Virus record (IMG/VR): IMGVR_UViG_3300025652_007521 | Coordinates: 1 to 62,810 of that record | Length of the DNA: 62,810 nucleotides | Direction: 5' to 3' (one strand) | DNA from: a virus | In this document: piece after piece, positions 8,656 through 43,700 of the stretch | Layout: each line of letters starts with the position of its first letter | How positions within the stretch are numbered: position 1 is the stretch's first letter | Notes under the pieces: generated by a model | Database searches by the model: none | What the model was told of the DNA's origin: nothing | What the model saw: the letters and a program-made list of their open reading frames with translations, nothing else | Made by a program: the position numbers and the translations under genes

Positions 8656-9363
8656 ATGGCAAAATCAATCGACGATTTTAAAGCAATTGTTACTAAGAGA
8701 CAAGGTCTTGCAAAGACCAATCGCTTTTTGACAATTTTTACTCCACCTACTCAATCGTTAATTAATTTAAACCCACTTGATATTGTTGGTCGTATTGCCA
8801 ACGAAACTTTTAATGCTAGGAGTTTAATAAACGATCCAAGAGATATTGCGTTTCTTACTGAATCAGCAACATTACCTGGTCGTAGTCTTAATACCCTAGA
8901 TTTTTCTGCAGAAAAAGAAACATTAAAATTACCTAATGGATTTATTGATGATGATGTCACAATGACGTTTTATTTAACAAACGATTATTATATGAAAGAT
9001 ATGATGGAGACTTGGATGTCATCAATTGTTGATACAGAAAAATATCAATTAGGTTATAAAAAGAATTATCAAACAGATATTGTAATACAGCAATTAAATA
9101 CCTTTGATAAAAATATATACGGTGTTAAATTAATTAACGCGTATCCAATATCAATAGGAGCACTTGCTCTAAACAACGAATCTGAGAATGCATTTCAAAG
9201 ATTACAAGTTACATTTGCATACGATAGATATGTACCACAAAATTTTATAGATTCATCTATATCTGGCGCAATATCAGCATTACCGAATGAAGTGAAAAGA
9301 TTATTACCAGATAAAATGCAAAGCGGATTGAAAAATTTTACAACAGTTAGTTCATTATTTTAA
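8656..9363 (+). CDS. 54: Tail-tube-fold protein, probable tube initiator gp54
   Basis: 235 aa with the gp19/gp54 type layout. An N-terminal extension leads to an antiparallel core, with a LPGRSLNTLDF strand, MTFYLTNDYYMKDMMETWMS (helix after strand) and a final AFQRLQVTFAYDRYV strand that parallels T4 gp54 (TFDVTFAYRV). T4 gp54 sits on gp48 and nucleates tube polymerisation. It is smaller than T4 gp54 (320 aa). It lies directly before gp26 in a hub cluster, which supports gp54 over the major tube gp19, and a separate gp19 occurs later in the window. Confidence 0.65.
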   Translation: MAKSIDDFKAIVTKRQGLAKTNRFLTIFTPPTQSLINLNPLDIVGRIANETFNARSLINDPRDIAFLTESATLPGRSLNTLDFSAEKETLKLPNGFIDDDVTMTFYLTNDYYMKDMMETWMSSIVDTEKYQLGYKKNYQTDIVIQQLNTFDKNIYGVKLINAYPISIGALALNNESENAFQRLQVTFAYDRYVPQNFIDSSISGAISALPNEVKRLLPDKMQSGLKNFTTVSSLF

Positions 9364-9381
9364 TATTATTAGGAGAATATT

Positions 9382-10086
9382 ATGGCTTTACCAACGTTGA
9401 ATGCTGCGAAGTATAGAACAGTCATTCCATCACTAAATCAGGAAATTGAATATAGGCCTTATTTAGTAAAAGAAGAAAAGATTTTAATGATTGCAATGGA
9501 ATCAAAAGATCAAAGTCAAATACTTAGAGCTTTAAAAGATGTAATCAAAGCATGTGTATATGACGACATTAATGTAAATAAATTAGCAATGTTTGATTTA
9601 GAAGCATTATTTTTGCAATTAAGAGGAAAGTCTGTTGGTGAATCGACAGAAATAAAAATTAAATGTAAGCATTGTGAAGCTGAAAATCATAGGGAAATTA
9701 ATTTCGAAGACATTAATATGCCCGTTGTAACAAATAAGAATAATGTTATTGCTTTAACTGATGAAATAGGTGTAACATTAAGTTATCCATCAGTAGGTGG
9801 ATTAGAAAAGCAAGATCAAAAAGCAAGTAGTGTTGAGCAAGCTATGAATATGATTGTTGACTGCATTGAATCAATATATGATGCAAATGCAGTATATTCA
9901 GCAAAGGACGAAGGTACAAAGGCAGTAAAAGAATTTGTTGATTCTTTAAATAGTGCTCAGTTTAAGAAATTAACAGCGTACTTTGAAGAAATGCCGGCAG
10001 TAACTTATGATATGAATTTTGATTGTTCTTCTTGTGGTGAAACAAATGAGATGGAGTTAAGAGGCTTCGACAATTTTTTTGGTTAG
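9382..10086 (+). CDS. 26: Baseplate hub protein gp26 (zero-frame product)
   Basis: 234 aa, similar in layout to T4 gp26, a minor hub or assembly factor. It has two CxxC pairs (Cys95/Cys98 and Cys215/Cys218), likely forming a zinc ribbon around a helical insertion. It ends with an RGFDNFFG sequence encoded across seven consecutive T residues. An overlapping -1 frame continues into a gp51-like sequence, so gp26 and gp51 may be made as a frameshift pair. It is followed by gp51 and then the tape measure, the position of tail assembly chaperones in other phages. AGGAG precedes the ATG. Confidence 0.88.
   Translation: MALPTLNAAKYRTVIPSLNQEIEYRPYLVKEEKILMIAMESKDQSQILRALKDVIKACVYDDINVNKLAMFDLEALFLQLRGKSVGESTEIKIKCKHCEAENHREINFEDINMPVVTNKNNVIALTDEIGVTLSYPSVGGLEKQDQKASSVEQAMNMIVDCIESIYDANAVYSAKDEGTKAVKEFVDSLNSAQFKKLTAYFEEMPAVTYDMNFDCSSCGETNEMELRGFDNFFG
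10074..10080 (+). other. Candidate -1 ribosomal frameshift site (T-heptamer)
   Basis: Seven T residues read as AAT TTT TTT GGT in the gp26 frame, giving a slippery T TTT TTT. A -1 slip bypasses the TAG at 10084 and enters the gp51 frame as Trp-Leu-Gly-Leu-Ser-His. No clear downstream pseudoknot was found by eye. Confidence 0.6.
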
Positions 10087-10274
10087 GCCTCTCTCACGAT
10101 ACCTTATATAACCACTATAAGACCAACTTTGCGATGATGCAACACCATAATTATAGTCTCACGGAATTAGACAATATGATGCCGTGGGAACGTGAGATAT
10201 ATGTAGCGTTATTACAAGAACATATTAAAGAAGAAAATGAAAGACGTAAAGCAGAACAAGCGAGGAGTAAATAA
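10080..10274 (+). CDS. 51: gp51-like hub assembly factor, likely a gp26 frameshift extension
   Basis: The frame is open from before the gp26 stop to TAA 10272-10274. Its sequence resembles the short gp51 hub-assembly proteins of marine T4-like phages: SHDTLYNHYKTNF, MQHHNYSLTELDNM and PWEREIYVALLQEHIKEE. The first possible start codon is ATG 10134 (then 10137), giving only 46 aa, with no Shine-Dalgarno. The 18 codons before it, which also look protein-like, would be reached only by a -1 shift at 10074-10080. I list the range from the shift site; an independent start at 10134 is the alternative. The stop overlaps the next ATG (TAATG). Confidence 0.7.
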   Translation, partial: WLGLSHDTLYNHYKTNFAMMQHHNYSLTELDNMMPWEREIYVALLQEHIKEENERRKAEQARSK

Positions 10275-10594
10275 TGTCTGAAGAAGAAAAAGTATTCCAT
10301 CCAGCAGATACGAATGGTGATGGTAAAGTAAGTGCAGCTGAAGAGCAGTTATATCTTGAGTTTAAACGCAAAGAGTTAGAAGATGCTGATGCTATGCGTG
10401 ATGCTCAACGTAACATGACATGGTTTGCATTAGGTGGATTACTATTATATCCATTCGCTGTTGTTCTTGCATCACTAGCTGGTTTAGATCAAGCACAAGA
10501 AACATTAGGTGATATGGCACCAACATACTTTGTAGCTGTTGCTGGTATTGTTGCTGCGTTCTTTGGTACACAAGCAATGAAAGGTAAGAAATAA
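10274..10594 (+). CDS. Small membrane protein with an EF-hand-like loop
   Basis: 106 aa. Residues 11-25 (ADTNGDGKVSAAEEQ) form a canonical EF-hand calcium loop. A charged helix follows, then two hydrophobic segments of membrane length (about 48-67 and 83-100) and a basic GKK tail. A two-segment small membrane protein could be a holin, or a membrane factor for tail or genome entry. It lies between gp51 and the tape measure and overlaps both neighbours by one base (TAATG). I know similar proteins occur in marine T4-like phages but not with a proven function. Confidence 0.75.
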   Translation: MSEEEKVFHPADTNGDGKVSAAEEQLYLEFKRKELEDADAMRDAQRNMTWFALGGLLLYPFAVVLASLAGLDQAQETLGDMAPTYFVAVAGIVAAFFGTQAMKGKK

Positions 10595-10710
10595 TGGATC
10601 CGGTAAACGCATGGGAAACACTATCATACTTTGACGGTATTTTATTTACTGTCTGGTTAGGTATTTTATATTATGGTAAAAATTTAATCGACGATTGGTT
10701 CGGAAAATAA
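10594..10710 (+). CDS. 38-residue membrane peptide
   Basis: Starts in the stop of the previous gene (TAATG) and encodes a peptide with one hydrophobic segment (about residues 14-27, GILFTVWLGILYYG) and an acidic, aromatic tail (DDWFGK). It fills the space before the tape measure exactly, has no competing frame, and its coupling to the EF-hand membrane gene suggests the two act together, for example as a holin pair or a membrane-docking pair. Homology is not recognised. Confidence 0.6.
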   Translation: MDPVNAWETLSYFDGILFTVWLGILYYGKNLIDDWFGK

Positions 10711-10727: not shown

Positions 10728-12491
10728 ATGGCTGATAAAATAGATCCCGAAATACTAGAAGCTATGAAGAATAGCATTATGTCTGAGGCGCAGTTAAAAG
10801 CTGGCTTTGGTGGTAAGGCATTCGAAGGTGGTAAGGACGTAAAGGGATTCGGCGGAAAGGGTATGAAAGCCGAAGATCAAACAAAGAAGAATAGCCGGCT
10901 TGAGTCTGGTGTTGCTTCTGGAGAGCTCGGCCGTTTAGCTAAACAATTAGAAGAACAAAATAAAATTGCTCAAAATAATAAATCTGAAAAAGATAGACAG
11001 CAAGCTTTAATGGATCTTGTTCTAGCAACCGAGAAAGGTGACGAGGAAGGAGCGCAAAACGCACTAGAATTAAGAGCTACATATATTGCAACACAAGAGC
11101 GATTAGAAAAAGCTATCGAATCTGGAGATAGTTCTCTCATAGAATTAGAACAAGCTAATATTGAAAGAGTTCTAGCCGGTGCTGAAACAGAAGAGAATCG
11201 CCGAGAAGCTAATAAAATGGCTGAAAAACAGTCTGGTTTATTAGATAAAATATCAGGTGGGATTAGTGGATTAACTGGTTTTCTAAAAGATAATGCTGTT
11301 GCTATTGGGGGTGGTTTATTAGCTGGCCTTGCGCTTTTTGCACCGGAATTAATGGAAAAATTAGTCGGAAGGCTTGTTGAGGTGCTAGGGACAGCGTTTG
11401 AAATCGTAAAGAAATTATTAGATGGTGATGTTAACGGTGCTCTTGAAGCTTTTGGTACAGAATGGAAGGCATTTACTGGTGCATTCATATTCTTCTTTGG
11501 TGGTAAAATTATAAAAGGTTTGAAGGCAGCGCATGCAGCTTTTAAAGGAATAATGGCTGCAGTACAAACATATAAAATGTTTTTAGCTACAAATTATGCT
11601 GGTAGTATGATGGCACACTTAAAAGATATGATGAAAAATCTTGGTAACACATTAATGAAGCCGTTAAGACTTTTACTAAATGGTGCTAAGGTATTTAGAG
11701 TATTTATGATGACAACATTTATTCCAGGAATGATAGCTGCATTTAGTGGAATGATAGCTGCAATTACGCCGATGCTAGTTGCTTTAGCTCCAATTCTATT
11801 ACCTATATTAGCAATTGCTGCAGTCTTTGGTTTAATATATCTTGCATTGGAAAAAATGCGAGAAGCAATGGGATTTACTTCTATCTTTGATGTAATGTTA
11901 CTAGGTCTTGCATATTTAAAAGATGGATTTGGTCATATTGTAAATCTTATTGGTACAATTGTTAACTTTATTATGGGCCTTGTAGGTAAGTTTGCTAGCT
12001 TCCTTGGGTTTGATATAGATATTCCAAAGATACCAAAAATGGATACTGATAATGCTTCAAGGAAAAAGGCAGAATTACAAGAAAAAGCAGCCGCTGCGGC
12101 AGAAGAAGAAGCTGCCAAGAAAGCAAAACAAGATATTGATGCGGATCCACTAAGATATGAAGTAGATATAACAGAACCAGAATTATCTACGAGTACAATT
12201 GATTCAAGCGAATCAATAACACCTGATAGCACATCTAGTAGAGGTAGAGGGAGAAGGAGAGGTCGAGCATCTGTATCTAAAAATCAACCGGTTGCGGGAG
12301 ATCAACTAAATATAGAATCAACGGAAAATAATATGATGCAAGAAAAAGCTCAGACTAATTCCCCTACGAATGTTGTAGTACAAAATAAAGGTGGAGACGT
12401 AACAAATAATAGTACAACTAATCAAACAAGAAATTACAGACGAAGAAGAGGGTGGAGATCTAATGATACAGATACTGCCGCGGCTTTTTAA
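10728..12491 (+). CDS. 29: Tail tape measure protein gp29-like
   Basis: 587 aa, nearly the length of T4 gp29 (590 aa), so a T4-like tail length is expected. The layout is a Gly/Lys-rich N-terminus, a long charged helical region (about 50-180), several hydrophobic stretches (about 190-210, 250-262, 330-380, 400-430), a Lys/Glu/Ala-rich helix (about 445-475), and a disordered Arg/Ser/Asn-rich C-terminus. Hydrophobic segments in a tape measure fit release into the host membrane. It follows gp26/gp51, the expected chaperone pair, and precedes gp48. The call rests on length, layout and position more than on residue identity. Confidence 0.8.
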   Translation: MADKIDPEILEAMKNSIMSEAQLKAGFGGKAFEGGKDVKGFGGKGMKAEDQTKKNSRLESGVASGELGRLAKQLEEQNKIAQNNKSEKDRQQALMDLVLATEKGDEEGAQNALELRATYIATQERLEKAIESGDSSLIELEQANIERVLAGAETEENRREANKMAEKQSGLLDKISGGISGLTGFLKDNAVAIGGGLLAGLALFAPELMEKLVGRLVEVLGTAFEIVKKLLDGDVNGALEAFGTEWKAFTGAFIFFFGGKIIKGLKAAHAAFKGIMAAVQTYKMFLATNYAGSMMAHLKDMMKNLGNTLMKPLRLLLNGAKVFRVFMMTTFIPGMIAAFSGMIAAITPMLVALAPILLPILAIAAVFGLIYLALEKMREAMGFTSIFDVMLLGLAYLKDGFGHIVNLIGTIVNFIMGLVGKFASFLGFDIDIPKIPKMDTDNASRKKAELQEKAAAAAEEEAAKKAKQDIDADPLRYEVDITEPELSTSTIDSSESITPDSTSSRGRGRRRGRASVSKNQPVAGDQLNIESTENNMMQEKAQTNSPTNVVVQNKGGDVTNNSTTNQTRNYRRRRGWRSNDTDTAAAF

Positions 12492-27736: not shown

Positions 27737-30700
27737 ATGGCAATTACAACGTTAAATAAGAATCCTAATAGTGCGTATACATTAGATGATTTCGATGAAA
27801 CTAAAAACTATCATCGAGTATTGTTTAAACCTGGCGTTGCCGTACAAGCACGCGAGCTTACGCAAATGCAAACTGCCATACAGCGTCAAATTGATTATCA
27901 TGGACAATATACATTCCCTGATGGCGCGCGTGTAGTTGGTGGTAAACCTTCTATTGAGTTTAACTATGATTATATTCAGATAGAAGATGCTTTTACATCT
28001 GGCGGTCAGGCCTATGTAACTTCCTCATATCTTGCAGATTATAAAGGTAGTACTATCGTAGGTGCAACAAGTGGTGTAAAAGCTACTGTACTTCAGGCGA
28101 TTAATCAAGTTGGCGTTGATGTTAATGATTCTACAAAAAAAGGTATTTTAGAAAACTCCGGCGGCGATGCTATTACGTTATATGTTCAATATACGTCTGG
28201 CGATGGTGATGCAGCCAATGGTACTGGTGGAACAAATAAAACGTTTTTAGCTGGTGAAATAATTAAACTTTTAGCTGCAAATGGTAGTGAAATTACTTCG
28301 AAGAAAACTCGTGTAGGTGGATTTGGTAATGGTGATACACTTGATGGCGGTTCTTCATCAACTGCAACTGCTACTGAATTTATTGGAACAACCTTTGTTG
28401 ATGATCCTACTAGTGATTCAAATATTCCTGCAGCAACTGCAGTAGGACTTGGTTCTCAGGCTGTTATTGAAGAAGGCGCATATTTTATCAAAGGTACATT
28501 CGTTTATGTTCCAGCTCAATCGGTAATATTAGACAAATACACAAATAGTCCTTCATACATTATTGGTTTAAGTGTTACAGAATCAGTTGTTTCAGCTACG
28601 GTAGATTCTACTCTTAATGATAATGCCGCAGGTACTACAAACCTAGCTGCTCCTGGTGCTGATAGATATAAAATTACAACTAAATTAATTAAAACACCAA
28701 AAGATGCAAACCCTAATGATGAATTTAACCAATATGTATTATTGCTAACAACCGATGAAGGAATTATTGCATCTGATAAGTCTAATGGTGATCCAAATAA
28801 TACAACCGAATTTAGTGCAAGATTAGCAACTAGAACAAAAGAAGAGTCTGGCAATTACTCAATATCACCTTTTAAATATGATGTAAGAAACTATTTAAAT
28901 AACGAAGGTGGTAATAACGGTTTTAAAACTGCTGCAGCAATTATAGCTGATGGAGATGCTGCTAATACACAAGCAGCTAAAATTTATGGTAACAATCATC
29001 TTGCATTTGGTATTGAGCCGAATACAATGTATGTAGATGGTTATAGAATAGAAAATCTAAAAACACGATACATAAAAATTGAAAAACCACGCACTGATAC
29101 CTTAGCGTTTGGTGACGTTGAAAGAGAAATAAACTATGGTAATTTCTTTATTGTTGATTCATCGACTGTTAGAGGTATGCCAGATATTAATGACTATACC
29201 ATTGCAACATTGCAAAATACAAGTAATAATAGCACAGCGATTGCACACTTTAAGGATATTACAGGTGCTGGCCCAACTTCCGGAAGAACACAAGGGAAAG
29301 TAAGATACGAACATGTTGTTGCGCATGCATCTACAAATAACTTTAAGAAAACTGCATCTGATGGAACAGTAACCACAGGTGTTGATCTTACAGTAAGTAA
29401 TAATGTCAGTGGTGTCGGTCTTATTTTTGATTTAGAAATTATGTATGATGGTTCTTGTATTATTACCATGCTTGATGGCGGTAATAACTATGCTACCAAT
29501 TGGGATCTAACAATTCCTGCATCCGAACTTGGAGGTGGATCTACTGCTCTACATTTAGACGGTACATTATTAGGTATAGGTACATGTCGAACTAGATCTC
29601 TTGAAAAACATCCTAGTAGTTCTGATAATTCACTAGCTAGATTACATGTATTCGATGTAAATATGACTCGCGGATCGTTGACAGATGTTAAGCATATTGT
29701 GCAAGAGCACGAAGGTGGAGATGGTGGTGATTTCCAAGATTTTGCCGCAACGATTCCTACTGCTCATATAGGTAAGTTATTTACGAATGCAAGATCTGGT
29801 GGTGCAACATCGATGTTATTCCGTTTACCATATAGATCAATTAAGCATCTCGGATCACATGTATCTCCAACTGCTGAGGTTCCACGAGTAAGATTGAAGA
29901 AAAAAGTTAAATTTAATAAAACCGCTAATAACTCTACTAGTGCAACTTTTGACTTATCTACAGGCGAATCATTATACGGCAATACTGGCTTTTTAACACA
30001 AGATGGTAGTGGACTTGCTTTTACAACAAACGTGACAGAATCTGGTGGTACTGTTACTGTTACTGGATTAGATGCAACTGAAGATGACGCTGATTGTAAT
30101 ATTATTATTACTATTGAAAAGACGCAAACTGATCCAACTGGTAATAAATCTTTAAGAACTAAAACAGCTCAATGGTCTCAAACCGGTACTGCTCCTTTCA
30201 CTGGTTATAAATTTGACGGATATAGCGAAATTAGATTACATAAACCAGATGTTTCTCGAATATACTATGCATATGATAATTCAACTAAAATAAGCGGAAC
30301 AACTGCTGCTACGGTTAATACAATTGGTTCTACTACGCTGAAGTTAACTGCATCTGTATCGGGAATTATTCCTGGCATGCAAATTGTAAAAGCATCTACT
30401 GATACTGGTAATCTAGAGCCAATAAGTTATGGAACAGTAGTTAGTGTTGAAGTAGATGGCGGAGTAACTGTATTAACTTTAAGTAAACCTTTAATTGAAG
30501 CTGCCAATAGCCAAGGTATTATTCTTTTTGATAATATAAAGGATCAATTTACATCTGATGATGGCCAAAGAGAAGCATATTATGATGAAGCTAAGCTTAT
30601 TCCAAAAAATGCTGGTAGCGTGATTGCAGACTTAAGAGTTAAATTTAAATATTATTCTCACGGAACTGGTGACTATTTTACAATTGATTCACATAGTGGA

Positions 30701-33700
30701 GATGATAAAACTTATTACGCTAGACAATTTAATGGTTTGCCTTTAAGAGATTGTATTGACTTTAGACCAGTTAAAGCTGTAACAAATGGAACAAATTCTC
30801 CTGTATTAGGTAAAGAATTTTCTAGTGGTACAGGTGGTGTAGTCGGTAAGCCACCAGCTCAAGGTGAAAAAGTTACAACTGATATGGAATTTTATTTACC
30901 TCGTGTAGATAAAATCATAGTAGATAAAGAAGGAAAATTCGATGTTATTAAAGGTGAAACTGGATTAAATCCTACTATTCCAGAAGATCGATCTAATGCT
31001 ATGACCCTTTTCACATTATTCTTAAATGGATTTATGTTTAGAGCGCCACCTCAAAAAGATTATAAAGTTACGACTCATAACTATAAACGATATCAAATGA
31101 AAGATATTGGAAATCTTGATAAAAGAATTAAGAAGCTAGAATACTATACGTCTTTAAACTTTTTAGAAGCTTCGGCAACAAATCAACACATGGTTGATGA
31201 TTCTGGTAACCCTTTATTTAAAAATGGTATTTTTGTAGATTCATTTAAAGGTCACAATAAAGGTAATGTTAACCACCCAGATTATTTAAATGCTATTGAC
31301 AAATATCAAGGTGTTTTAAGACCACATTGTAATTTTAGAAATGTACCTCTACGCAGATATGCTAATGATATGAATCAAGGCACTGGTACAGAACCTAAGA
31401 GTTCTAAGATTGCTCTTAAAAATTCTATATACACATTGCCATATACTAATACTGCGTTTATCGAACAGCCCTATGCGGTTGATAGTATTAAAGTTAATCC
31501 ATACAATATCTTTACATGGGGCGGTACTATGCATCTTTCGCCCGATAGTGATGAATGGCTAGATACATATCATCGACCAGAAGTAACTATTGATCAAGAA
31601 GGTACAAGTGATGCTTTATTGGCAACACTGCTAGAGGAAAATGCTATAGGTACATTCTGGAATGAATGGGAAACAATATATACTGGAAAAGATATTGATC
31701 TTGTTAGTGAAAGAAACATGACTCTACAAGCAACACATGGTTGGAAATCTGGTGCGAATACTGTGGATGGAATCGGTGGAGATTGGTTGTCAAATCAAAC
31801 TCATACATATGATTTCCAAAGAGTAGATATTGATGCTTTATTAGCAGAACAAGATAACCCTAATCATGATTGGTTTGACGCTACTGCAACCGGTGGATCA
31901 GGCATGAGAATTAAGGTCAATGAAACAATACATGAAGAAACAACGTTTCATAACCAGGTAAGAGAAGGATTTAATAACTCTATTGTTTGGGATACAGAAT
32001 ATGAATCTCAAGGTAGTAAAGTAGTTGAGACAAATGTTATTCCACTTATGCGCCCACGTCATATATATTTTAGAGCTGAGCATTTGAAGCCTAACACTAG
32101 ATTCTATCCTTTCTTTGATGGTGTTGATGTAAGCGATTATTGTGTGGGCGTAGAATCTAATTATGGTCCTAATGGCTTTGTTGAGTTTTCGCAACAAGAA
32201 CAAATTAATGTTAATGCGAATTTTAATAAGACAAGCAGTACACCTCAAGGTGCACTTATTTCTGATGCAGGTGGTAAGTTATTTGGTAAGTTCTTAATAC
32301 CTAACAACGCAGCAGGATTAAGATTTAAAGTTGGTACAAAAGAATTTAGACTTTCCGATGACTCAACTAATAATACAACTACTGAAGTTTCTTATGCAGA
32401 AGCAAGTTACTTTGCACAAGGTCAAGCACAATACTTAGAGGAAACAATTCATTCTACCCGTGTTCCAAGTATTGAAACTACTCAACTAGCTAATTCACAA
32501 ACTATTAGAGAAGATGCAGTAACTAAAGTAAGTCAGAGAGTACAATATATCGATCCATTGGCGCAAACATTTATATGTGATCAGTCTGGTGGTATGTATA
32601 CAACTAAATTGGATTTATTTGTTGCTCGAGCCGATGATACTGGAGGTACTGCGGAAAAGGCAAGTATCCCATTGCGAGTAAGTTTACGATTGGTTGAAAA
32701 CGGTATACCAACACAGAAAATTGTTCCAGGTTCTGACGTAACTGTTTATTATAATTCTCAAACTAATGGTCATAACGCTAACGCATTAGTAGTAGGCGAT
32801 ACCTACACAATTAGAAATGTAGGTAACGCAAACTGGTCTAACGCTGGTTGGACTGCTAATCATGTTGGACCTAATGGTGATAAACATGGTTCAACTCCAT
32901 CTGTCGGCGATTCTTTTATATGTTCACATGCTACAAACGGTGGCGGTAGTACTGGTATCGCTCGAGCTGAAAATACATGTTATGCAGGTGATATTACAGA
33001 TGATGCTAGTGTCGCATGTCCTGTAACATTTGAACATCCTGTTTATTTGTCAGAGGCTACTGAATATTCAGTAGTACTAATTGCATCATCTGAGCTTTGG
33101 AAGGTATATTTCTCAGAAACTGGTAAATATGATATAACTGGTAATGCATCTCAACCAGCAATGATTGGTAAGCAACCATATAATGGTGTGTTCTTTACAT
33201 CACAAAATGCTTCTACATGGTCTCCTCATCAATTAAGAGATTTAAAGTTTAATTTATACCGTGCAAATTTTGATGTAAATAGTAGTTCAAGTAATGACAA
33301 TTATAAAATTAATTTTGTAAATGATAAACTAGAAGCAGATAGGCTAAGTAGTAATCCATTCCATTATATTTCAAAAGATAGCTCTAATACTGTAATTAGA
33401 GTTAGACATCCTAATCATGGTATGTATACTGGTAACCAAAAAGGAGCTGCAAGTACAAGTAAAAATAGTAACGTTGTTTTAAGTGGCTGTGTTAGTGAGA
33501 ATAACCTTACTGCAGCAAACTTAAATCGTAGCGCAGGATTTACAGTGCATGATATTGAGCACGATTCATATTGTATAACTGTACCTGGTGTCGCAACAAC
33601 TCTAAGTATTCGAGGTGGTGGTACTAATATATTTGCTAATGGTAATGCTCAATTTAATAGTTTTTATGTTTATAACGAAAACTTCCAACCATCTGGAACC

Positions 33701-34546
33701 AATTTATCTGCTAGCTTTAAAACTATTACTGGTAGATCAATGGACGGCGATAGAGCAGCAAGCCATGGCCAACAAATGGATTATGCTTCAGTAGGCTCTG
33801 AAGTTCTTACGTTAAATCAATCTTTAGATACTGAGTTCCCATGTCTAATTGCATCAGAAAAGAATGAGATTCTAAAGGCAAGTATAATACAGTCAAGTTT
33901 CCTCAACAAGTCATTTTCTGTTACAATTAACTTTACTAATGATTCTAATTTCCTATCACCAGTTATTGATGGAAGAAGAAACTCACTATTTTTAACACAA
34001 AATAGAATAAGCGATCCTGGATCTTATAATCAATATGCACCAGATGGTTCACTAAACTTTTATTATGAATCTGTTCAAGATGTAACACAATCTCCCGGAG
34101 ATACAATAACTCCTTCAAGTTCTACTCAAGATGCATTTTATAATAATAAGTCGGCAGCTGGTAGATATTATACTCCTGATACATCACCCATCGGTGTAAG
34201 TAATATAAATAATTACATAACTAGAAATGTATCATTGGAAGATAGCGCTAATGAATTAAGAGTTCTTGCTAATGTATTAAGAGGCAAAGATTCGAATGTT
34301 CATTTGTATTATAAAACATCTAGTAATTTAGATGATAACTTTAATCTACTTCCATGGACATATGCTGGACCAACTAATCCAATTTCAGAAGGTTCAGGCT
34401 TTGATAATGTTGAATGGGTTATTAATCCAGGATCAGGTCCAGGTTGGCGTGGATTTAGTGTTTTTGCATTAAAAATAGTATTAACTGGTAAAGATTCATC
34501 AAATGTACCAATGGTAAGGAACTTTAGAGCAATTGCAGCAACATAA
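27737..34546 (+). CDS. Giant DUF4815-type virion protein at the gp10 position
   Basis: 2269 aa. The N-terminal 250 residues (YHRVLFKPGVAVQARELTQMQ, then QIDYHGQYTFPDGARVVGG) are the DUF4815 attachment domain seen in marine T4-like baseplate and fibre proteins. The rest is a mosaic of beta domains: Gly-rich shafts, a module at about residues 1682-1750 (VVGDTYTIRNVG) shared with the 3350-aa protein, and a C-terminal jelly-roll (YYKTSSNLDDNFNLLPW to NFRAIAAT). It probably attaches to the wedge and serves as a platform or proximal fibre, like T4 gp10. The exact T4 counterpart cannot be decided by eye. Confidence 0.7.
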   Translation: MAITTLNKNPNSAYTLDDFDETKNYHRVLFKPGVAVQARELTQMQTAIQRQIDYHGQYTFPDGARVVGGKPSIEFNYDYIQIEDAFTSGGQAYVTSSYLADYKGSTIVGATSGVKATVLQAINQVGVDVNDSTKKGILENSGGDAITLYVQYTSGDGDAANGTGGTNKTFLAGEIIKLLAANGSEITSKKTRVGGFGNGDTLDGGSSSTATATEFIGTTFVDDPTSDSNIPAATAVGLGSQAVIEEGAYFIKGTFVYVPAQSVILDKYTNSPSYIIGLSVTESVVSATVDSTLNDNAAGTTNLAAPGADRYKITTKLIKTPKDANPNDEFNQYVLLLTTDEGIIASDKSNGDPNNTTEFSARLATRTKEESGNYSISPFKYDVRNYLNNEGGNNGFKTAAAIIADGDAANTQAAKIYGNNHLAFGIEPNTMYVDGYRIENLKTRYIKIEKPRTDTLAFGDVEREINYGNFFIVDSSTVRGMPDINDYTIATLQNTSNNSTAIAHFKDITGAGPTSGRTQGKVRYEHVVAHASTNNFKKTASDGTVTTGVDLTVSNNVSGVGLIFDLEIMYDGSCIITMLDGGNNYATNWDLTIPASELGGGSTALHLDGTLLGIGTCRTRSLEKHPSSSDNSLARLHVFDVNMTRGSLTDVKHIVQEHEGGDGGDFQDFAATIPTAHIGKLFTNARSGGATSMLFRLPYRSIKHLGSHVSPTAEVPRVRLKKKVKFNKTANNSTSATFDLSTGESLYGNTGFLTQDGSGLAFTTNVTESGGTVTVTGLDATEDDADCNIIITIEKTQTDPTGNKSLRTKTAQWSQTGTAPFTGYKFDGYSEIRLHKPDVSRIYYAYDNSTKISGTTAATVNTIGSTTLKLTASVSGIIPGMQIVKASTDTGNLEPISYGTVVSVEVDGGVTVLTLSKPLIEAANSQGIILFDNIKDQFTSDDGQREAYYDEAKLIPKNAGSVIADLRVKFKYYSHGTGDYFTIDSHSGDDKTYYARQFNGLPLRDCIDFRPVKAVTNGTNSPVLGKEFSSGTGGVVGKPPAQGEKVTTDMEFYLPRVDKIIVDKEGKFDVIKGETGLNPTIPEDRSNAMTLFTLFLNGFMFRAPPQKDYKVTTHNYKRYQMKDIGNLDKRIKKLEYYTSLNFLEASATNQHMVDDSGNPLFKNGIFVDSFKGHNKGNVNHPDYLNAIDKYQGVLRPHCNFRNVPLRRYANDMNQGTGTEPKSSKIALKNSIYTLPYTNTAFIEQPYAVDSIKVNPYNIFTWGGTMHLSPDSDEWLDTYHRPEVTIDQEGTSDALLATLLEENAIGTFWNEWETIYTGKDIDLVSERNMTLQATHGWKSGANTVDGIGGDWLSNQTHTYDFQRVDIDALLAEQDNPNHDWFDATATGGSGMRIKVNETIHEETTFHNQVREGFNNSIVWDTEYESQGSKVVETNVIPLMRPRHIYFRAEHLKPNTRFYPFFDGVDVSDYCVGVESNYGPNGFVEFSQQEQINVNANFNKTSSTPQGALISDAGGKLFGKFLIPNNAAGLRFKVGTKEFRLSDDSTNNTTTEVSYAEASYFAQGQAQYLEETIHSTRVPSIETTQLANSQTIREDAVTKVSQRVQYIDPLAQTFICDQSGGMYTTKLDLFVARADDTGGTAEKASIPLRVSLRLVENGIPTQKIVPGSDVTVYYNSQTNGHNANALVVGDTYTIRNVGNANWSNAGWTANHVGPNGDKHGSTPSVGDSFICSHATNGGGSTGIARAENTCYAGDITDDASVACPVTFEHPVYLSEATEYSVVLIASSELWKVYFSETGKYDITGNASQPAMIGKQPYNGVFFTSQNASTWSPHQLRDLKFNLYRANFDVNSSSSNDNYKINFVNDKLEADRLSSNPFHYISKDSSNTVIRVRHPNHGMYTGNQKGAASTSKNSNVVLSGCVSENNLTAANLNRSAGFTVHDIEHDSYCITVPGVATTLSIRGGGTNIFANGNAQFNSFYVYNENFQPSGTNLSASFKTITGRSMDGDRAASHGQQMDYASVGSEVLTLNQSLDTEFPCLIASEKNEILKASIIQSSFLNKSFSVTINFTNDSNFLSPVIDGRRNSLFLTQNRISDPGSYNQYAPDGSLNFYYESVQDVTQSPGDTITPSSSTQDAFYNNKSAAGRYYTPDTSPIGVSNINNYITRNVSLEDSANELRVLANVLRGKDSNVHLYYKTSSNLDDNFNLLPWTYAGPTNPISEGSGFDNVEWVINPGSGPGWRGFSVFALKIVLTGKDSSNVPMVRNFRAIAAT

Positions 34547-34550
34547 TACA

Positions 34551-34766
34551 ATGAAAGAAAGATATGAAAAAGTAGAAGATAATCCATCACTAGTTCGCGA
34601 TAACAGCTCTGGTGCGATTATAAATATAAATGAAACTGCATATAAAGCACGACTAAGGCAGATAGAAGAAACCAAAAATCAAGCTCAACAGGCTGAAAAG
34701 ATTGATAAGCTCGAATCAGACGTTGAAGAAATTAAAAACTTATTAAAACAACTAGTGAGTAAATAA
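34551..34766 (+). CDS. Small coiled-coil protein between giant virion genes
   Basis: 71 aa. It begins MKERYEKVEDNPSLVRDNSSGAI, a pattern common in marine T4-like phages next to fibre genes, and ends in a coiled coil (EKIDKLESDVEEIKNLLKQL). The start was set at ATG 34551, five bases after the upstream stop; a TTG at 34533 would overlap it. Its stop overlaps the start of the 3350-aa gene (TAATG). It may be an assembly cofactor for one of its giant neighbours. Confidence 0.72.
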   Translation: MKERYEKVEDNPSLVRDNSSGAIININETAYKARLRQIEETKNQAQQAEKIDKLESDVEEIKNLLKQLVSK

Positions 34767-37700
34767 TGGCGCAAAATAAAGAAATAAGAGTACCAAAAAC
34801 TTCATCGTTTGAAGAATGGAGACAATCCACTAACGAAATATCATTTGATCTAGGTCCTATTGAAAGTGATGATAATAAAAATGCTGATTCTCTGGATAAG
34901 GAAACTCGTCTTACCGACCAAGCTAAAATAATCAATGTATCTACTGGTGTATCTACTGCAACCTCTGTAGATGTTGGTGCTTCTGCTCCATGGCAAGGTT
35001 GGAACGATTTTTTCGCATTAGATGGTTCAACGGGCAAAGGCGCCTCTTTAGGTGGCTTTGGTGGTACATTGTCTGGCCTTGGTGTTGGTGGTACTGAAAT
35101 AGATGATCAGGAATTTAGTGTTGCTGCAAATGGTAATATTACCTTAGCTCCTAACACTAGTGTTTACGCCAGTAATGATCTACGCGCCACTCAAGGTGGT
35201 ACTAATTATGCTCAAAGCGGCGGTGATGGCGGAGCATATATCGAGTTTAATACTTTCCAAAAAAATACTGCGTGGAGAGGTAAAACCTTACAATTTACTG
35301 GTGATGTTAATAGTAATTCTTTACATTCAAGATATACTGTAGAAGCATATATTCGAACACTAGATATAACTAATAATTATGCTCTTCTTTCTGAAGCAAC
35401 AGCTGTAATAACTTCAGCAAATGATTGGGACATATCACTAGATATCGAAGAAGGTAGTAATGTTGAAGTTCAAGTTGGTTTCACCTTTGGTGGTCGAAAT
35501 GCTAATGTATCGGGTAGCTTTGACGATGGATCAATAGTTGTAAATAACGTTGAATTAAATGTATCTATTGGCGCAAGTGAAATCATTGATCTTGATGAAG
35601 AATTTATTCGAGATCAATCTAATGGTTCTAATGATGTTGGTATGAGAATTGATTTAGCTCCTGATAAAAAACTTGATATGACTGCAGGTTATATTATCAT
35701 GGACGGAGCATCTGGGCATCCTACTGACTTTGCGGTGGGTAATTCTGTTGTGCAGTTTACTGATAATAATAATAGTAATGAACGTGTGTTTACTGGTGAT
35801 ATTGTAGGTATTACAAAAGATTCTACTGGAAATAACATTTCAAAGCTGCTTATCACTAACGTTGTAGGTTCGTTTAATCCTGGGCTAAATTTAGGTTCAG
35901 AAACAAACTATTCAACACAAATAGTTCTTGCTGCTAGATTAGTTAGACAGGTTGTTGGTTCACTTGATTTTGGTTACGTTCGAGTATATAAAACAAATAG
36001 TGGTACTATAACAAAACTAGAACAAAGTGTTACTGCAGCAAATGGTTTCCACTTACCTCGTGCAACCTTTGCTCTTCCATTGACTTCAGGTAGCACATTA
36101 CCATCATCATTTATAGAAGGTGAAAGAATTTATCAAACCGCCGATGGTAACGTCGAGTCAGCATCAAACATTTCATCATTTAGTGCTGTTGTATTGCTTG
36201 GCACAACAACAGCTGGAAAGTACGCTTTAGGATCTCATGGCGGATTTATACTTTATGATGTAATTGGTACGTTTGATCCGAATCGTAGATTAAGAGGTAC
36301 TACTACTCCAAGTGCTACTGTTGAAGCTTCTCGCTTTAGTGCATCTCATGCTGATTGTTCAATAGATAATACATTCTCATCTATTATTCGATTAAACACT
36401 CCTGCAGTTACTGGTGATTCATATGAAATTGAATTTGCTAGTGCAGTTGATGCTATTGTGGAATTACAAGACGATATTGGTAAGATTGAAGATCTTCCGA
36501 CTAATACTGTTCAAGCAGGATTTGGTGCTACTGGAGACAGAAAAGCATTTGATACTACCGATCTTGTTACAACGTTGAATACATTACAAGATATGATTGG
36601 CAATGCTGAAATGCCAATCATTGCTAATAATGAGCATTTGATTCCAGCAAATGTGAATACTATTAGTGGCTTAGCTAAAAGCATAGTTGATTTTATTGGT
36701 GATACTAATCTATCAGATGCAAATTTAGGTGCTACTGCCAATACATCTTCTACTCTAACCAATGCAATTACAACAATTAAAAACTTTATTGGTAGTACAG
36801 ATATTTCTGATATTACTACTGGTGAAAATGTTACTACCACTATTGCTCAGCTTCATGATGAAGTCGGTGATGTTGAATTATTAGATGATACTGCTACAAC
36901 AAGTGCTGCTGGATTTAATACTAATGTTCTTACAACAGCTCTTATTGAATTAAGAACTCTTGTATGTCCTGGTGATATTGATGCAGCTAAGACCGCGTTG
37001 TCTGCTAATGTAGCACCTGCAGCAAACTTTGCTGCAACTACAAATACTGATGGTATTGTTGAATTACAAACTATTGTTGGTGATAGAGTTGGTATTAGTA
37101 CAGCTAATCTTATTGGTACTGCTGCTGCAACAAACAATATTGTTGCCCAAATTAATCATATTAAAGACGAAATTGGTACTGCTGCACTATTAACAACTTC
37201 TAATGGCGATATTGCATCTGCAATTAATGAGCTCGAAACAAATATCCGTGGAACAGTAAATAATTACACTATTACAGATAATCTGCCATCTGACATCACT
37301 TATACTGTCAATAATGGTATTATAACTGCGATTAATACTTTAACATCATTTGTCGGTGATACCAGCCTTGATGCGATAGGGTCTTCAAATACAATTACTT
37401 CAGCTGTCGATAAAATACATATTGAGCTTGGAGAGCCAGATGCTCTAAATTCTGCACCTACTGCATATAACGATACTAGTGGTCAAGAGACTGATGGTGT
37501 TGGTGGATTCAGAAATGCCGTAGCTGAAACAGCTTCTGAAGCAACAGTAGTATCAGCATTGACAGAATTAAGACAAGCGCTTGTTGGTAACACTGCAAAC
37601 TTAGCAGCAGTTACAAATGCTCGTATAGACACAGCAACTAGTGCGACAATTCAAAATGCAATTACTGACCTAGCTAATTTGGCTGGTTATAGTAAAACAA

Positions 37701-40700
37701 ACGTTATTGATTCAATATTAGAAATTCAAGATTTAATGGGTGATGTTACTTCACTCAATAATGCAGATAATGATTTTAATAGCGCGAGAATTACTGATTC
37801 ATTAGTTGAACTAAAAACAGCTCTTGTTGGTACTGGTGATCTTACAGATACAATTGCTACTTTAAATGTAAACGACGAAACTGATTTTTCAGCTACAACC
37901 GTTGTTAATGCTATTGGCGAACTTCAAACTGATCTTGGTCAACAAAGTTTACTAAGTGCATCACCATTCCATGCAGATTTATATACAACCACAGGATCAG
38001 ATGTATATGCTAGTACAGATTTTCAATTAGCAATTAATGGTATTACTGCTGCAATCGGTAATGCTGATATTGGTAACGCAATTAATAGTGGTAGTAATGA
38101 AACTCTCACACAAGCAATTAGACAATTAAGAATTGATATTGGTGATGTTGGTGATAGTGGTGTAAATCTGGCTGCAGCCATAGGTTATTCAGCAACTAAT
38201 TTAAAAGCGGCTGTACTTGAAATACAAGGTGATATTGGTGATGTAACTAATATCAATAATGCAGCTGGTTATGTAGCTACTAGTGCAGTCACTGGTATTA
38301 CTGAAATTCAAGGATTAATAGGTAATCCTGTTGCTACTGCTGCTAACTTAGGAGCAATCAATACTCGAGTCCAAAAAGATACAGATGCTGATGTTGATGC
38401 CGGTGAAACTACAATTCCAATGGCCGATACAACCGGTATCGTAGTAGGTATGACGGTTCTAAATATAGAAACTGGTCGTACAGATAGTATTGCAGCTGGA
38501 ACTAAAGTAACAACTGTTAATAGCGATAGCGTTGTGATATCACCCATTACTGATGGGGTAATTAACGACGGTGATACCTTACGATTTGATGTTTCTACTG
38601 TTGTAAATGCAATTAATGCAATCGATTCTCGTATTGGATCTGAAATAAATGCAGCAACAATGGGTACTACTGCAGCTACGTTAGTACCGGCAATTAAAGA
38701 AATTACTGATGAGCTAGGTGATGTAACTGCAGGTAACCTAGGTACTACATCAAGTACTATTGTGACATCGATAAGAGAATTAGTTGATGGAACAGGCGCT
38801 GCAACAAGGGCAGTTTCTGGTGTTACAGGTTTAAAGCCATCGGGTAAATTAGATAAAATATCTGGTACAAGTACTGTAACCAAAAATCCTACTGTAACAG
38901 CAAATACTGGCCAAGCAAATATTACTGTAGCAGACGCGTCTAATCTAGTTATAGGTGCAGTTGTTACAGGTACTAATATTCCATCTGATGCATATATTGA
39001 AAGCATTTCAAATAACGTTATTACATTAAATAAAAATATTACTGTTGCTAATGTTACAACTGGTACAACTCTTACATTTACTATGGATCAGTCAATTTTC
39101 AGTAATATTAACTTCTTTGCACCAGGTACAGCTGAAAACGAAGAAACTACATTAAAATTCGGGCCTAATACAATTCTTGATGTTTCTGAAGGAACATTAA
39201 AAATGTCTAGTGCTAGTGCTGCATTCCAGGTTCAAAGTACATACTTAAAATTACAAGGTACATCAAAAACTGGATCTGGTTTACAAATCGATCGCAGCGA
39301 AATGCCTAATGTTGCAATTGAAGCTAGCTCTGATGCATTTATTGAATGGCGAGAAGATTTAATTAGTAATAATAATCCAAGCTCTGCTCATAACCTTAAT
39401 GATCTAGCATGGCGCGTTAGAGGTTTAACTGCAGATGATACTAGTGCTGCGGCATATACTGTTCCTAACCTTGATTTCCAAAACGCATATCGTTTATTTG
39501 GTATTGGTATATTTAACAATGCTAATACTATGGATAACGTTACTGTAACATGGGATGCTACTGAAAAACACTTTAATGTTTCATTAAACGATACAACCAC
39601 TGATATGACGGGTGGTGGTACTGGACCTGCGGGATCTGGCGCAACAGCTGGTTTAACTGCATGGGGTACAGCTGGTAAGATGCCACAAATTCATGTTGAT
39701 CGTCAAGGGCGAATTGCAGGTATTGCAGAAGTTTCAATGACAGGCTTTTTAGGTAACTTTACACTTAAAGGAGACAGCGGCAGTGATCTATTAGTTGCTG
39801 CAGATAATAATGTTCACATTACAGGTACCGCAGGAGAAATTGAAACTTCTATATCAGATGTAAGTGGTACAAGAACAATTCAAGTTGGTTTACCAAGCAA
39901 TGTAGACGTAGATGGAGCATTAACAGTAGCTGGTGATATCGATTTCAATACAACCGGTACTGTTAGTATTGGTACAGCTGATACCGAAGTTAATATTCCT
40001 GGTGAACTAAACGTATTCAATCTAAATGTAAGTGGTACTCAAACAACATCTACTGTATCTAATACAACAATTAGTGGTGATGCTTTTGTACTAAGAGCTG
40101 AAAATAGTAATGTACCAGCTAATGACGATACTCCAAAATTTGTGGTTGGACGAGGATTTAATACAACTAAGAATATCACTCAACTTGTTGCCGGTTTGCG
40201 ATATAAGATTGTAAGCGGTACTGGATTTACTTCAGTAGGTGCAAGTAATAATAATGTTGGTACAATTTTTACAGCAACCGGCGCAGGAACGGGTTCATCT
40301 ACAGCTAAACTTCAACGAGACGAAGCAGCAATTGCATGGAGTGAACAATATGATCAATTCATATTAACTCGTGCTGGTACTGCTGGTGCAGTTAGTACTA
40401 ATACTCAGCAAGGTGCAATCATTGCTCAAGGCGATACGATTGGATCTGCTACTAAGTTTACTGTTGCTACAAACAGCACAAATGCCGATAGACAAGTGTT
40501 ATTTATGGCAGCTGACGGTACTTCATCACTTATGAGAGATGGTGGATTACACTATAATCCAAGTACTAATGTACTTAAAGTAAATCATGGCAGTAATTAT
40601 ACAACGATTTCTAATAGTGGTAATCATTTTGATTCAAATATTACTGTACGTGATACCGTCGGTAGTGGTGCTCGTCAAATTAAAATCGAAGGTGCCAATG

Positions 40701-43700
40701 CAATACTTCAGTTAGTCGAAAACGATGCTAATGTTGCTAATAATCCATCTTGGTGGCATGTCGCCGATGGCGGTCATTATAGCATACGTTTAAACAATAC
40801 TGGTGCATATCCTTTGCAAATTGGTACTAATGCTGACAATAACGCTGTTTCTCATATTGATTTAAATTATCATACAGATATAACTGGTGGTCTAGACGTA
40901 ATTAGTGGTGGTACTAATCTAAAAGGTTTACAGCAAGTCGGCTTGTTTACACAAATGCGAAATGATGTTACTCAGGTTGGTAGCACTTTAGGTCATACAA
41001 GCGGATCCACAAGTATTGGTGCAGAGTTTAAAGGCAGAGTTAATACATCAGGCGATTTGTCAGTACTTGAAATTAGAGATGAACGAGTTATAAGTCAAAC
41101 TGATGGTAGTGAATCTTTTGGAAGTGCAACAAAACAATTACAACATAAGATAAATGGTACTCGAATGAGTTTCCTTGAGTTCTACGGAACAAGCGGTAAT
41201 ACACACTTTGCTCAGCTTGGCGGTATATCTCATGAAGTTCGCAAATCTTATCTACTTGGTCAAGGCAATGGTGCTACCAGATTATATCATAATACTGCTG
41301 ATGCACAAGCATCTCAAGATGTTTTACAAACGAAATCAGGCGGTATTAACATTAGCGGTAACTTAGAAGCAGATTCGGCTGATGTAACTGGTGATTTAGT
41401 AATTGGTACATTTAAAACTCAAGCTTACGGTCAATCAAGTTTAGTACCAAAATCACCGGTACATATAATTAAAACTGTAAGCAATGGTACTACTAATACA
41501 TTGCTTACATTAGAAACAGTTCAAAGCGATATTACTACTACACCAAATAAACAAAACATTGATTTTAGAATACAAGATACTAATAATGCTGCAAATTTAG
41601 CAAGAATTTCAGCAGCAGTAGATCATGGTGCTAATGGTGGTACTTATGGTTCAGTATCTCATGGAGAAGCTTGTTCTAATTTAATTTTTGGCACAACGAA
41701 TAATGGTACATTCGGCGAGAAAATGATTATCACTGGTAGAGGAGCGGTTGGCATTGGTACACTCAATCCGACTGTAACTCTTGATGTTGATGGTACAGCT
41801 AAAGCTAGTAGTTTTGTTGTTATACGTGATGCAGCTTCAGAAATTAAAATACAAAAGTCAAGCGGTAATACTGCTTATATTAATAAAGTTATATTATCTA
41901 ATACTAATTTTAATGATAAAGGTGGTGCAATATTTGCACAAAGCTCACAAGTTGGTGCTGCAATAGGTGATAGTAGTACTCAAGCTACATTCACAGCTCG
42001 TAATAATAACGATTCATACTTACAAATAATTGATGAAAGGTCTAGACTTTCCGGAAGTTCCACTTCTCCTCGAGATTGGTCAAAATCTCATAAGAGAATC
42101 GAGTTTGGTATTGATAGTACTCGTATGGCTTATCTTGCTGCAAACTGGAATGAAAACTACGGCTTCGAAATTGGTAGTGCTAGTCGAAATACAACAGATC
42201 CATTTAGATCAAATGCACGGCCATGGATTAGATTTAGAAGAGCTGCTTCTTATAATGGTCCTGGTGCGGTAGAATTATATCATGGCAACACAGATGCAGC
42301 TGGGTCAACGAAGAAGTTTGAAACTTTAAATGTTGGTGCTAAAGTAACAGGTCAATTATCAACTACCGGTAAATTAGGAGTTGGTACTGATTCTCCAGAA
42401 TGTGACGGACTACACGTTACAAACCTGACTAGTAGTACGATCGCCGGCGCAACAATGGCAAATGCTAAGTTGCTGGTTGGTACTGCAGCTGATGGTATTG
42501 GTTTAGATAATAATGAAATAGTTTGCTCGGCTGGTAATTTTTATATCAGAACCCTTAACGGATCAGCAGGCCATATTAATTTTGGCACATCAACAAGTAA
42601 TAACATGGTACTTACTGACGGAGGTAATGTTGGTATTAATGTTGGTGATGCTCCAGGTCAAAAACTAGATGTTGGCGGTAATATTAAGCTAAGTGGTTTT
42701 ATCGATCAAAACGGTACTGGCACTAATGACTTCGAAGGTCAGATTGATTGTAATAAGGATGTTAAAACAACTGCTTCAGGCAAAGGTTTCTATGCATTTG
42801 GTGGTGGTAGTGATTACCTCAAAATGATTCATGACGGAGCTGGTGGTCATATTACTTCAAATGATAAGCTAGAAATCGAAACTCCGCTCTTTGAAGTTCG
42901 TAAATCTGCTGCTGGTGAGTTAATGATTAGAGCTACTAATGACAATTCAGTTGATCTATATTATAATAATGCACTAAGATTCAAAACTACTTCTACTGGT
43001 GCTTCATTACCGGGAACTAGTAGAGCTATAGAAGCTATCGCAAATAATCAGACTTTTGTTGATAATTCTAAATTACATGTTGCTGAAATTAATTTTGCCC
43101 AAGGTAATGCACCTACCGATAGTGCAGCAATAAGATATGTTTCTACTACTGATGGTGCCAGAAACAGATCAGCATTAGACTTTAGAATATCAGATGATTA
43201 TAGTAATACTGCATCAATGGCTGATAAATTTAGATTCCGTTTTGATCCAACTGGTACTACAGTTAATAGTGGTAATGAATATTCATTGATAGAAATATAT
43301 GCTAAGGCTAATGGTTCTACAATGATGGATCTAACTCCATCTCCTGGTGGTAGTTCAAATGTTAAGTCTGACGTATTTACTGGTGCTCTAACTGGTAATG
43401 CTTCAACTGCAACAACTCTATCTGCTACTCTTGCAGTTTCCAAGGGTGGTACTGGTAACACAGCATTTGCAGATAAGGCTGTTATTATTTCTCAGGACAG
43501 TGGTACTGATAAATTATCTGCTGTAACAATGTCCACAAACGGTCAACTACTTATTGGTGGTACGTCTGGTCCTGCCGCGGCAACGCTCAGTGCAGGAAAT
43601 GGTATTGATATTACTAATGGTAATGGAACTATTACTGTTACAGCTGAGACTGCAACCTCTGGTAATCCTGGTGTTGCTAAGTTTAATACCGCTAACTTCT

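Follow-up and report, generated by a model that had tools for sequence, protein, structure and literature searches.

The gp26-type gene of a marine T4-like phage ends over a run of Ts, and a second open frame carrying the gp51 domain runs on past its stop. This raises the question whether gp51 is a protein of its own, as gene callers have it, or the tail of gp26, reached by a programmed -1 ribosomal frameshift as a preliminary description of this DNA had proposed. The locus was analyzed in the whole stretch of 62,810 nucleotides (IMG/VR virus record IMGVR_UViG_3300025652_007521), here called the window, and in its relatives. The closest named phages by sequence, among those compared, were Mosig, HTVC008M, Melnitz and P-SSM2.

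Reading frames at the gp26/gp51 locus

The gp26-type gene lies on the plus strand at 9382–10086. Its 234-aa product, the putative short form of a TAC-N-like tail assembly chaperone, matches Pfam T4_baseplate (PF12322, E 3.5e-60) and phrog_150 (E 7.8e-64). The final codons read GAC AAT TTT TTT GGT TAG. The seven Ts were confirmed to lie in frame as the heptamer T TTT TTT (10074–10080), in the register X XXY YYZ with the gp26 codons that is expected of a -1 frameshift signal, and one sense codon separates them from the stop TAG (10084–10086). The -1 frame is open over 10050–10274 and reads ...QFFWLGLSHDTLYNHYKTNFAMMQHH..., as had been described. Its extension past the slip site (10080–10274) comprises 64 aa and a stop and would give a long form of 297 aa. 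The part in front of the first ATG (10134–10136) reads WLGLSHDTLYNHYKTNFA, and ATG, GTG and TTG are indeed absent from this frame of the window 5' of 10134.

Gene callers pick this ATG and predict a gp51 ORF of 46 aa (10134–10274). The data do not support it as a real start. In the window the anti-Shine-Dalgarno score is a weak -1.5 at ATG 10134, compared with -7.3 at the gp26 start. A search with the -1-frame product hit phrog_634 ("baseplate hub assembly catalyst", gp51) at an E value of 1.1e-29, and the match starts at frame residue 2, which is the slip site and not the ATG. Homology thus continues 5' of the ATG.

The rarity of the T-run was considered as evidence and rejected, since neither T7 runs nor in-frame heptamers are rare in the window. 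There are 14 T7 runs, and among the 49 ORFs of at least 100 aa three X XXY YYZ heptamers lie within 10 codons of the stop. The count is uninformative and therefore the test had to come from relatives. As a separate observation, T7 runs across the whole window are about three times rarer than in shuffles (47 expected), and long homopolymers are apparently avoided.

The slippery site and the -1 frame in related phages

IMG/VR was scanned for loci with a gp51-type tail, and 166 were obtained. Adding the window and seven named phages raised the number to 174 loci, 159 of them distinct. From these, 130 representatives with gp26 identity below 85% were used. The query was the -1-frame protein; finding a tail was thus built into the search, but the state of the gp26 wobble bases was not. 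A gp51 from an Agrobacterium phage, used as query against the viral contigs, found no relatives.

The preliminary description had named conservation of the T-run as a check. The motif T TTT TT(T/C/A) was present in the gp26 frame of all 159 distinct loci, and the gp26 stop followed exactly one codon 3' of the heptamer in 154 of the 174 loci. We compared the 51 gp26 alignment columns at which a third-position T or C is silent in the 130 representatives. Just two columns were 100% T and both lie inside the heptamer, while the median column had 58% T. Parsimony on the gp26 tree gave no change at these two columns against 14–58 changes at every other column. The codon in front, whose last base is the first T of the heptamer, switched identity 36 times (AGT, AAT, TCT, GAT, GCT, GGT). 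By this comparison, the heptamer is conserved far beyond chance. The canonical heptamer occurs at the same place in P-SSM2, Mosig, Melnitz-3, S-PM2, phiM7, Vibrio R10Z, Agrobacterium Atu_ph04, S-P4, MC09, Astolliot, SynMITS9220M01, C48C1, Bakedbeans and HTVC008M. Variants are T TTT TTG in Rhizobium RHph_Y68 and G GTT TTC in the ackermannvirus phiMAM1.

A sequencing or assembly error in a homopolymer could have split a single gene, and the split does coincide with a homopolymer. However, all 159 distinct loci show the same split, as do isolate genomes (P-SSM2, S-PM2, HTVC008M and others), the heptamer variants differ between loci and the 0-frame stop is conserved. The probability of such an error is practically nil.

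Slippage could also occur during transcription. RNA polymerase is known to slip on longer T-runs, and on the seven Ts of the window this would yield a fraction of mRNAs one base longer or two bases shorter, with gp51 in frame. In contrast, the heptamer of most relatives is T TTT TTC and that of some is T TTT TTA, and these have only six Ts. Positions 1–6 are fixed and position 7 is free, which is the pattern expected of tandem tRNA slippage. The 3' hairpin found in about a third of the relatives and the upstream Shine-Dalgarno-like element (see below), both typical of ribosomal frameshifting, also argue against slippage of the polymerase, which we regard as very unlikely.

Ribosomal frameshifting further implies that the -1 frame is translated in front of any start codon. 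In the pre-ATG stretch pN/pS was 0.28–0.31 in the -1 frame, compared with 1.3 and 1.7–1.9 in the other two frames. A -1 stop occurred in none of 128 sequences and a 0-frame stop in all 128. By these measures the substitutions fit only the -1 frame, and this frame appears to be translated from the slip site on. In 64 of the 130 representatives, the window among them, the -1 frame has no ATG, GTG or TTG between its stop 5' of the site and the end of codon 18 past the slip. The early 0-frame stop is thus accompanied by an open -1 frame that carries the marks of coding selection and has no start of its own. In 111 of 128 sequences the second tail codon had A at its wobble position, as the 0-frame TAG or TAA requires, and therefore the short product seems to be under selection as well.

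These results bear on the possibility that gp51 is an independent 46-aa protein made from ATG 10134 or 10137. The ORF exists, and gp51 is deposited in this form for Mosig, Melnitz-3, S-P4 and HTVC008M. In the deposited records of relatives that were compared, gp51 either has its own start farther downstream or is omitted, and a joined frameshifted gene is annotated in none. The gp51 ATGs near codon 19–20 in the relatives had a mean anti-Shine-Dalgarno score of -0.8 with 1% strong sites, compared with -4.2 and 39% for the gp26 starts, and appear to be without a Shine-Dalgarno sequence. Purifying selection in this frame acts on at least 17 conserved residues 5' of the ATG, and a start at the ATG would cut the matching helix in a model of T4-type gp51 (residues 206–221). 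An independent gp51 would also leave the invariant silent sites unexplained. We consider it highly improbable.

Similarly, ribosomes that end at the gp26 stop might reinitiate nearby in the -1 frame. Such translational coupling has some appeal in relatives with an ATG a few codons from the gp26 stop, and in the distant Pseudomonas phage Cygsa01 and Vibrio phages K469 and 1.244, where stop and start overlap as TAATG. In the window and 63 other representatives, however, there is no start codon at this place, and coupling does not predict the invariance of the heptamer. We judge it extremely unlikely as the source of gp51. The preliminary description would have given up the frameshift for relatives with an independent gp51 start and Shine-Dalgarno sequence. 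None was found among the close relatives, but Cygsa01, K469 and 1.244 (L191, L193 and L196), with the gp26 stop overlapping the gp51 ATG, lack a canonical heptamer. Their TAATG overlap is a possible third route to the gp51 domain, besides frameshift and gene duplication.

Taken together, a -1 programmed ribosomal frameshift very probably produces a short and a long tail assembly chaperone from one gp26/gp51 coding unit. This explanation, put forward in the preliminary description, is supported by the invariant heptamer with its silent sites, the coding constraint on the -1 frame where no start precedes it, the lack of a Shine-Dalgarno sequence at gp51 and the homology to T4 gp51, all of which are shown by the sequence comparisons. 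From these observations we infer that the ribosome itself slips. Most ribosomes would terminate at the TAG at 10084–10086 and release the 234-aa short chaperone. A minority would slip back by one base on T TTT TTT (10074–10080), bypass the TAG and complete the 297-aa fusion with gp51 as its C-terminal domain. The slip-spanning peptide predicted for the window is ...FFWLGLSHDTLYNHYK, with the junction FF-WLGLSH.

Candidate stimulators and RNA structure

Signals for -1 frameshifting commonly include a stimulatory structure a few nucleotides downstream and, in bacteria, an upstream Shine-Dalgarno-like stimulator, neither of which is required. E. coli dnaX-type signals have both, the upstream element about 10 nt in front of the heptamer and a hairpin 3' of it. 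At the locus studied here, a similarly placed upstream element is clear in the family as a whole and a candidate in the window; the 3' hairpin is found in many relatives and is absent from the window.

Most relatives carry a GAGG or GGAGG element at a fixed upstream place, with a sharp minimum of the anti-Shine-Dalgarno energy there. Glu codons at position -6 were GAG in 52 of 63 cases, compared with 26% across the rest of gp26. The only such element of the window is GAGG at 10061–10064, nine nucleotides 5' of the heptamer. It is a candidate upstream stimulator and no stronger than in synonymous shuffles.

Nearly all predictions of the frameshift held, with the exception of the 3' stimulatory hairpin. 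A strong stem starting 3–9 nt past the heptamer was found in about 35% of the relatives, compared with 1–12% at other positions in the region (examples are L162 with z -3.9 and L123 with z -6.0). No such hairpin was found in the window (z +0.67). We also looked for an RNA structure that is conserved with covariation across the family. It was not found, and the downstream stems use several registers.

In the window, AGAGGC (10060–10065) can pair with GCCTCT (10087–10092) to form a candidate hairpin with the slip site in its loop (z -2.54 for positions 10055–10100). An enclosing fold beat synonymous shuffles (z below -1.5) in 23 of 37 representatives of the T TTT TTT type; no compensatory changes or covariation supporting the enclosing stem were seen among the relatives. 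It is conceivable, although we think it doubtful, that in the clade of the window the usual 3' hairpin has been replaced by this hairpin, which may modulate frameshifting by masking or exposing the Shine-Dalgarno-like element. To our knowledge, no hairpin of this kind enclosing a slip site has been described from other phages.

T4 gp26 and gp51 and the tail assembly chaperones

The gp26 and gp51 of T4-like phages belong to the same two protein families as the products of the window. T4 gp26 has 208 aa and ends in RGLKEFFELL. The gp26 profile of the window aligned to T4 gp26 up to that end (hhalign E 3.9e-19), and T4 gp26 stops right after the same FF position. T4-type gp51 (249 aa) aligned to the gp26 profile of the window as well (E 3.1e-11), and its C-terminus aligned to the tail of the window, beginning with the first residue at the slip site (E 3.4e-8). 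Like the proposed long form of the window, T4 gp51 therefore corresponds to the short form plus the gp51 domain. T4 thus has two genes, gp26 for the short form and gp51 for a long form read in one frame. These are separate and on opposite strands without a slippery site (G TTC TTT), in contrast to the single locus with a slippery site in the window. The codons at the 3' end of T4 gp26 are GAG TTC TTT GAG, and T TTT TT was found at the gp26 end in none of nine T4-type contigs with a readable gp26 end. Phage T4 provides a clean natural control, in which the long form has its own gene and the slippery site has been lost. In the AlphaFold model of T4-type gp51, the elements of gp26 recur in unchanged order and are followed by three C-terminal helices, and the first of these (206–221) covers the stretch that would be lost with a start at ATG 10134. 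In one T4-type contig (L184:2501-3246) the gp51 ORF is split in mid-gene between two frames, unlike in its relatives, which is probably an indel or sequencing error.

The preliminary description had suggested that gp26 and gp51 are T4-type tail assembly chaperones. This identity is supported by the hhalign profile matches, which pair the short form with T4 gp26 and the long form with T4 gp51; the predicted fold lends weaker support. For residues 1–95 of the gp26 model (pLDDT 88) the best VIA-align matches were 3FGX (Z 7.7), the HK97 tail assembly chaperone 2OB9 (Z 7.5) and YqbN 3KLU (Z 7.2), all below the aligner's safe Z of 8; the first clearly unrelated chain had Z 3.1. No tail chaperone was among the VIA-align matches listed for the T4-type gp51 model, which excludes nothing, and the PDB Foldseek search by itself gave weak matches only. 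A review of T4 describes gp26 and gp51 as hub assembly chaperones, of which gp51 is required and absent from the final particle (PMC3004832).

The gene order had been likened to lambda G, GT and H. A tail tube gp19-like gene (8656–9363) precedes gp26, and a putative tape measure gene (10728–12491) lies downstream. The latter has a weak match to phrog_16297 (E 0.043) and gave no usable profile alignment with T4 gp29 (E 0.12). HTVC008M has the same gene order, with the deposited label "putative tail tape measure". The analogy with lambda is supported by the profile matches to T4 gp26 and gp51, but the putative tape measure gene does not follow immediately. Unlike in lambda, two small ORFs (10274–10594 and 10594–10710) separate it from gp26/gp51. 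The first, on the plus strand, encodes a protein of 106 aa that has hydrophobic segments and an EF-hand-like loop (DTNGDGKVSAAEE). Its relatives occur in HTVC008M and Melnitz and also in the 54–58-kb roseophages CRP-207, CRP-345 and CRP-810, a distribution that suggests exchange between unrelated phages. The second, also on the plus strand, overlaps the stop of the first and encodes 38 aa with a hydrophobic stretch; Pelagibacter phage Mosig has a 42-aa gene at the same place. Very long plus-strand ORFs lie 3' of the tail module (27737–34546, 2269 aa; 34766–44818, 3350 aa).

In lambda, gpG and gpGT prevent the tape measure protein from coming out of solution and load it so that the tube can assemble. 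By analogy, both forms encoded by the window would act on its tape measure protein in the same way. The slippery site of lambda is G GGA AAG and that of the window T TTT TTT. The conserved frameshift in the tail genes of dsDNA phages (Xu, Hendrix & Duda 2004, as cited in PMC8785237) gives the pair that is proposed here, a short chaperone and a minor -1-frameshifted longer form, from genes between tail tube and tape measure. At the chaperone locus of Vandenendeviridae and Andersonviridae (phage Adele, PMC12846349), a -1 shift likewise takes place on T-rich sequence close to where the short chaperone gene ends, and it is routinely missed in annotation. These are different virus families, and their invariant motif is GTTTTT instead of T TTT TT(T/C/A). 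Our reading agrees with work on T4-like chaperones (Vladimirov, Gautam & Davidson 2022, Virology 566:9-15), as far as it is reported in later papers. According to PMC10885494, that study found that some T4-like phages do not frameshift but carry two copies, a short one and a longer fusion, and according to PMC12846349 it described poly-T slippery sites in the short chaperone genes of T4-like phages.

Frameshifting by -1 is well known in tailed phages and usually missed in the annotation of the T4-like marine group. Our results indicate that phages of one of the commonest ocean groups (cyanophages, pelagiphages and relatives) encode the function of T4 gp51 as a frameshifted tail of gp26 rather than as a separate "hub assembly catalyst" of 45 aa, and deposited annotations of the locus are therefore often wrong or incomplete. 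They also support the view that T4 gp26 and gp51, which have long been listed among the baseplate hub proteins, are tail assembly chaperones.
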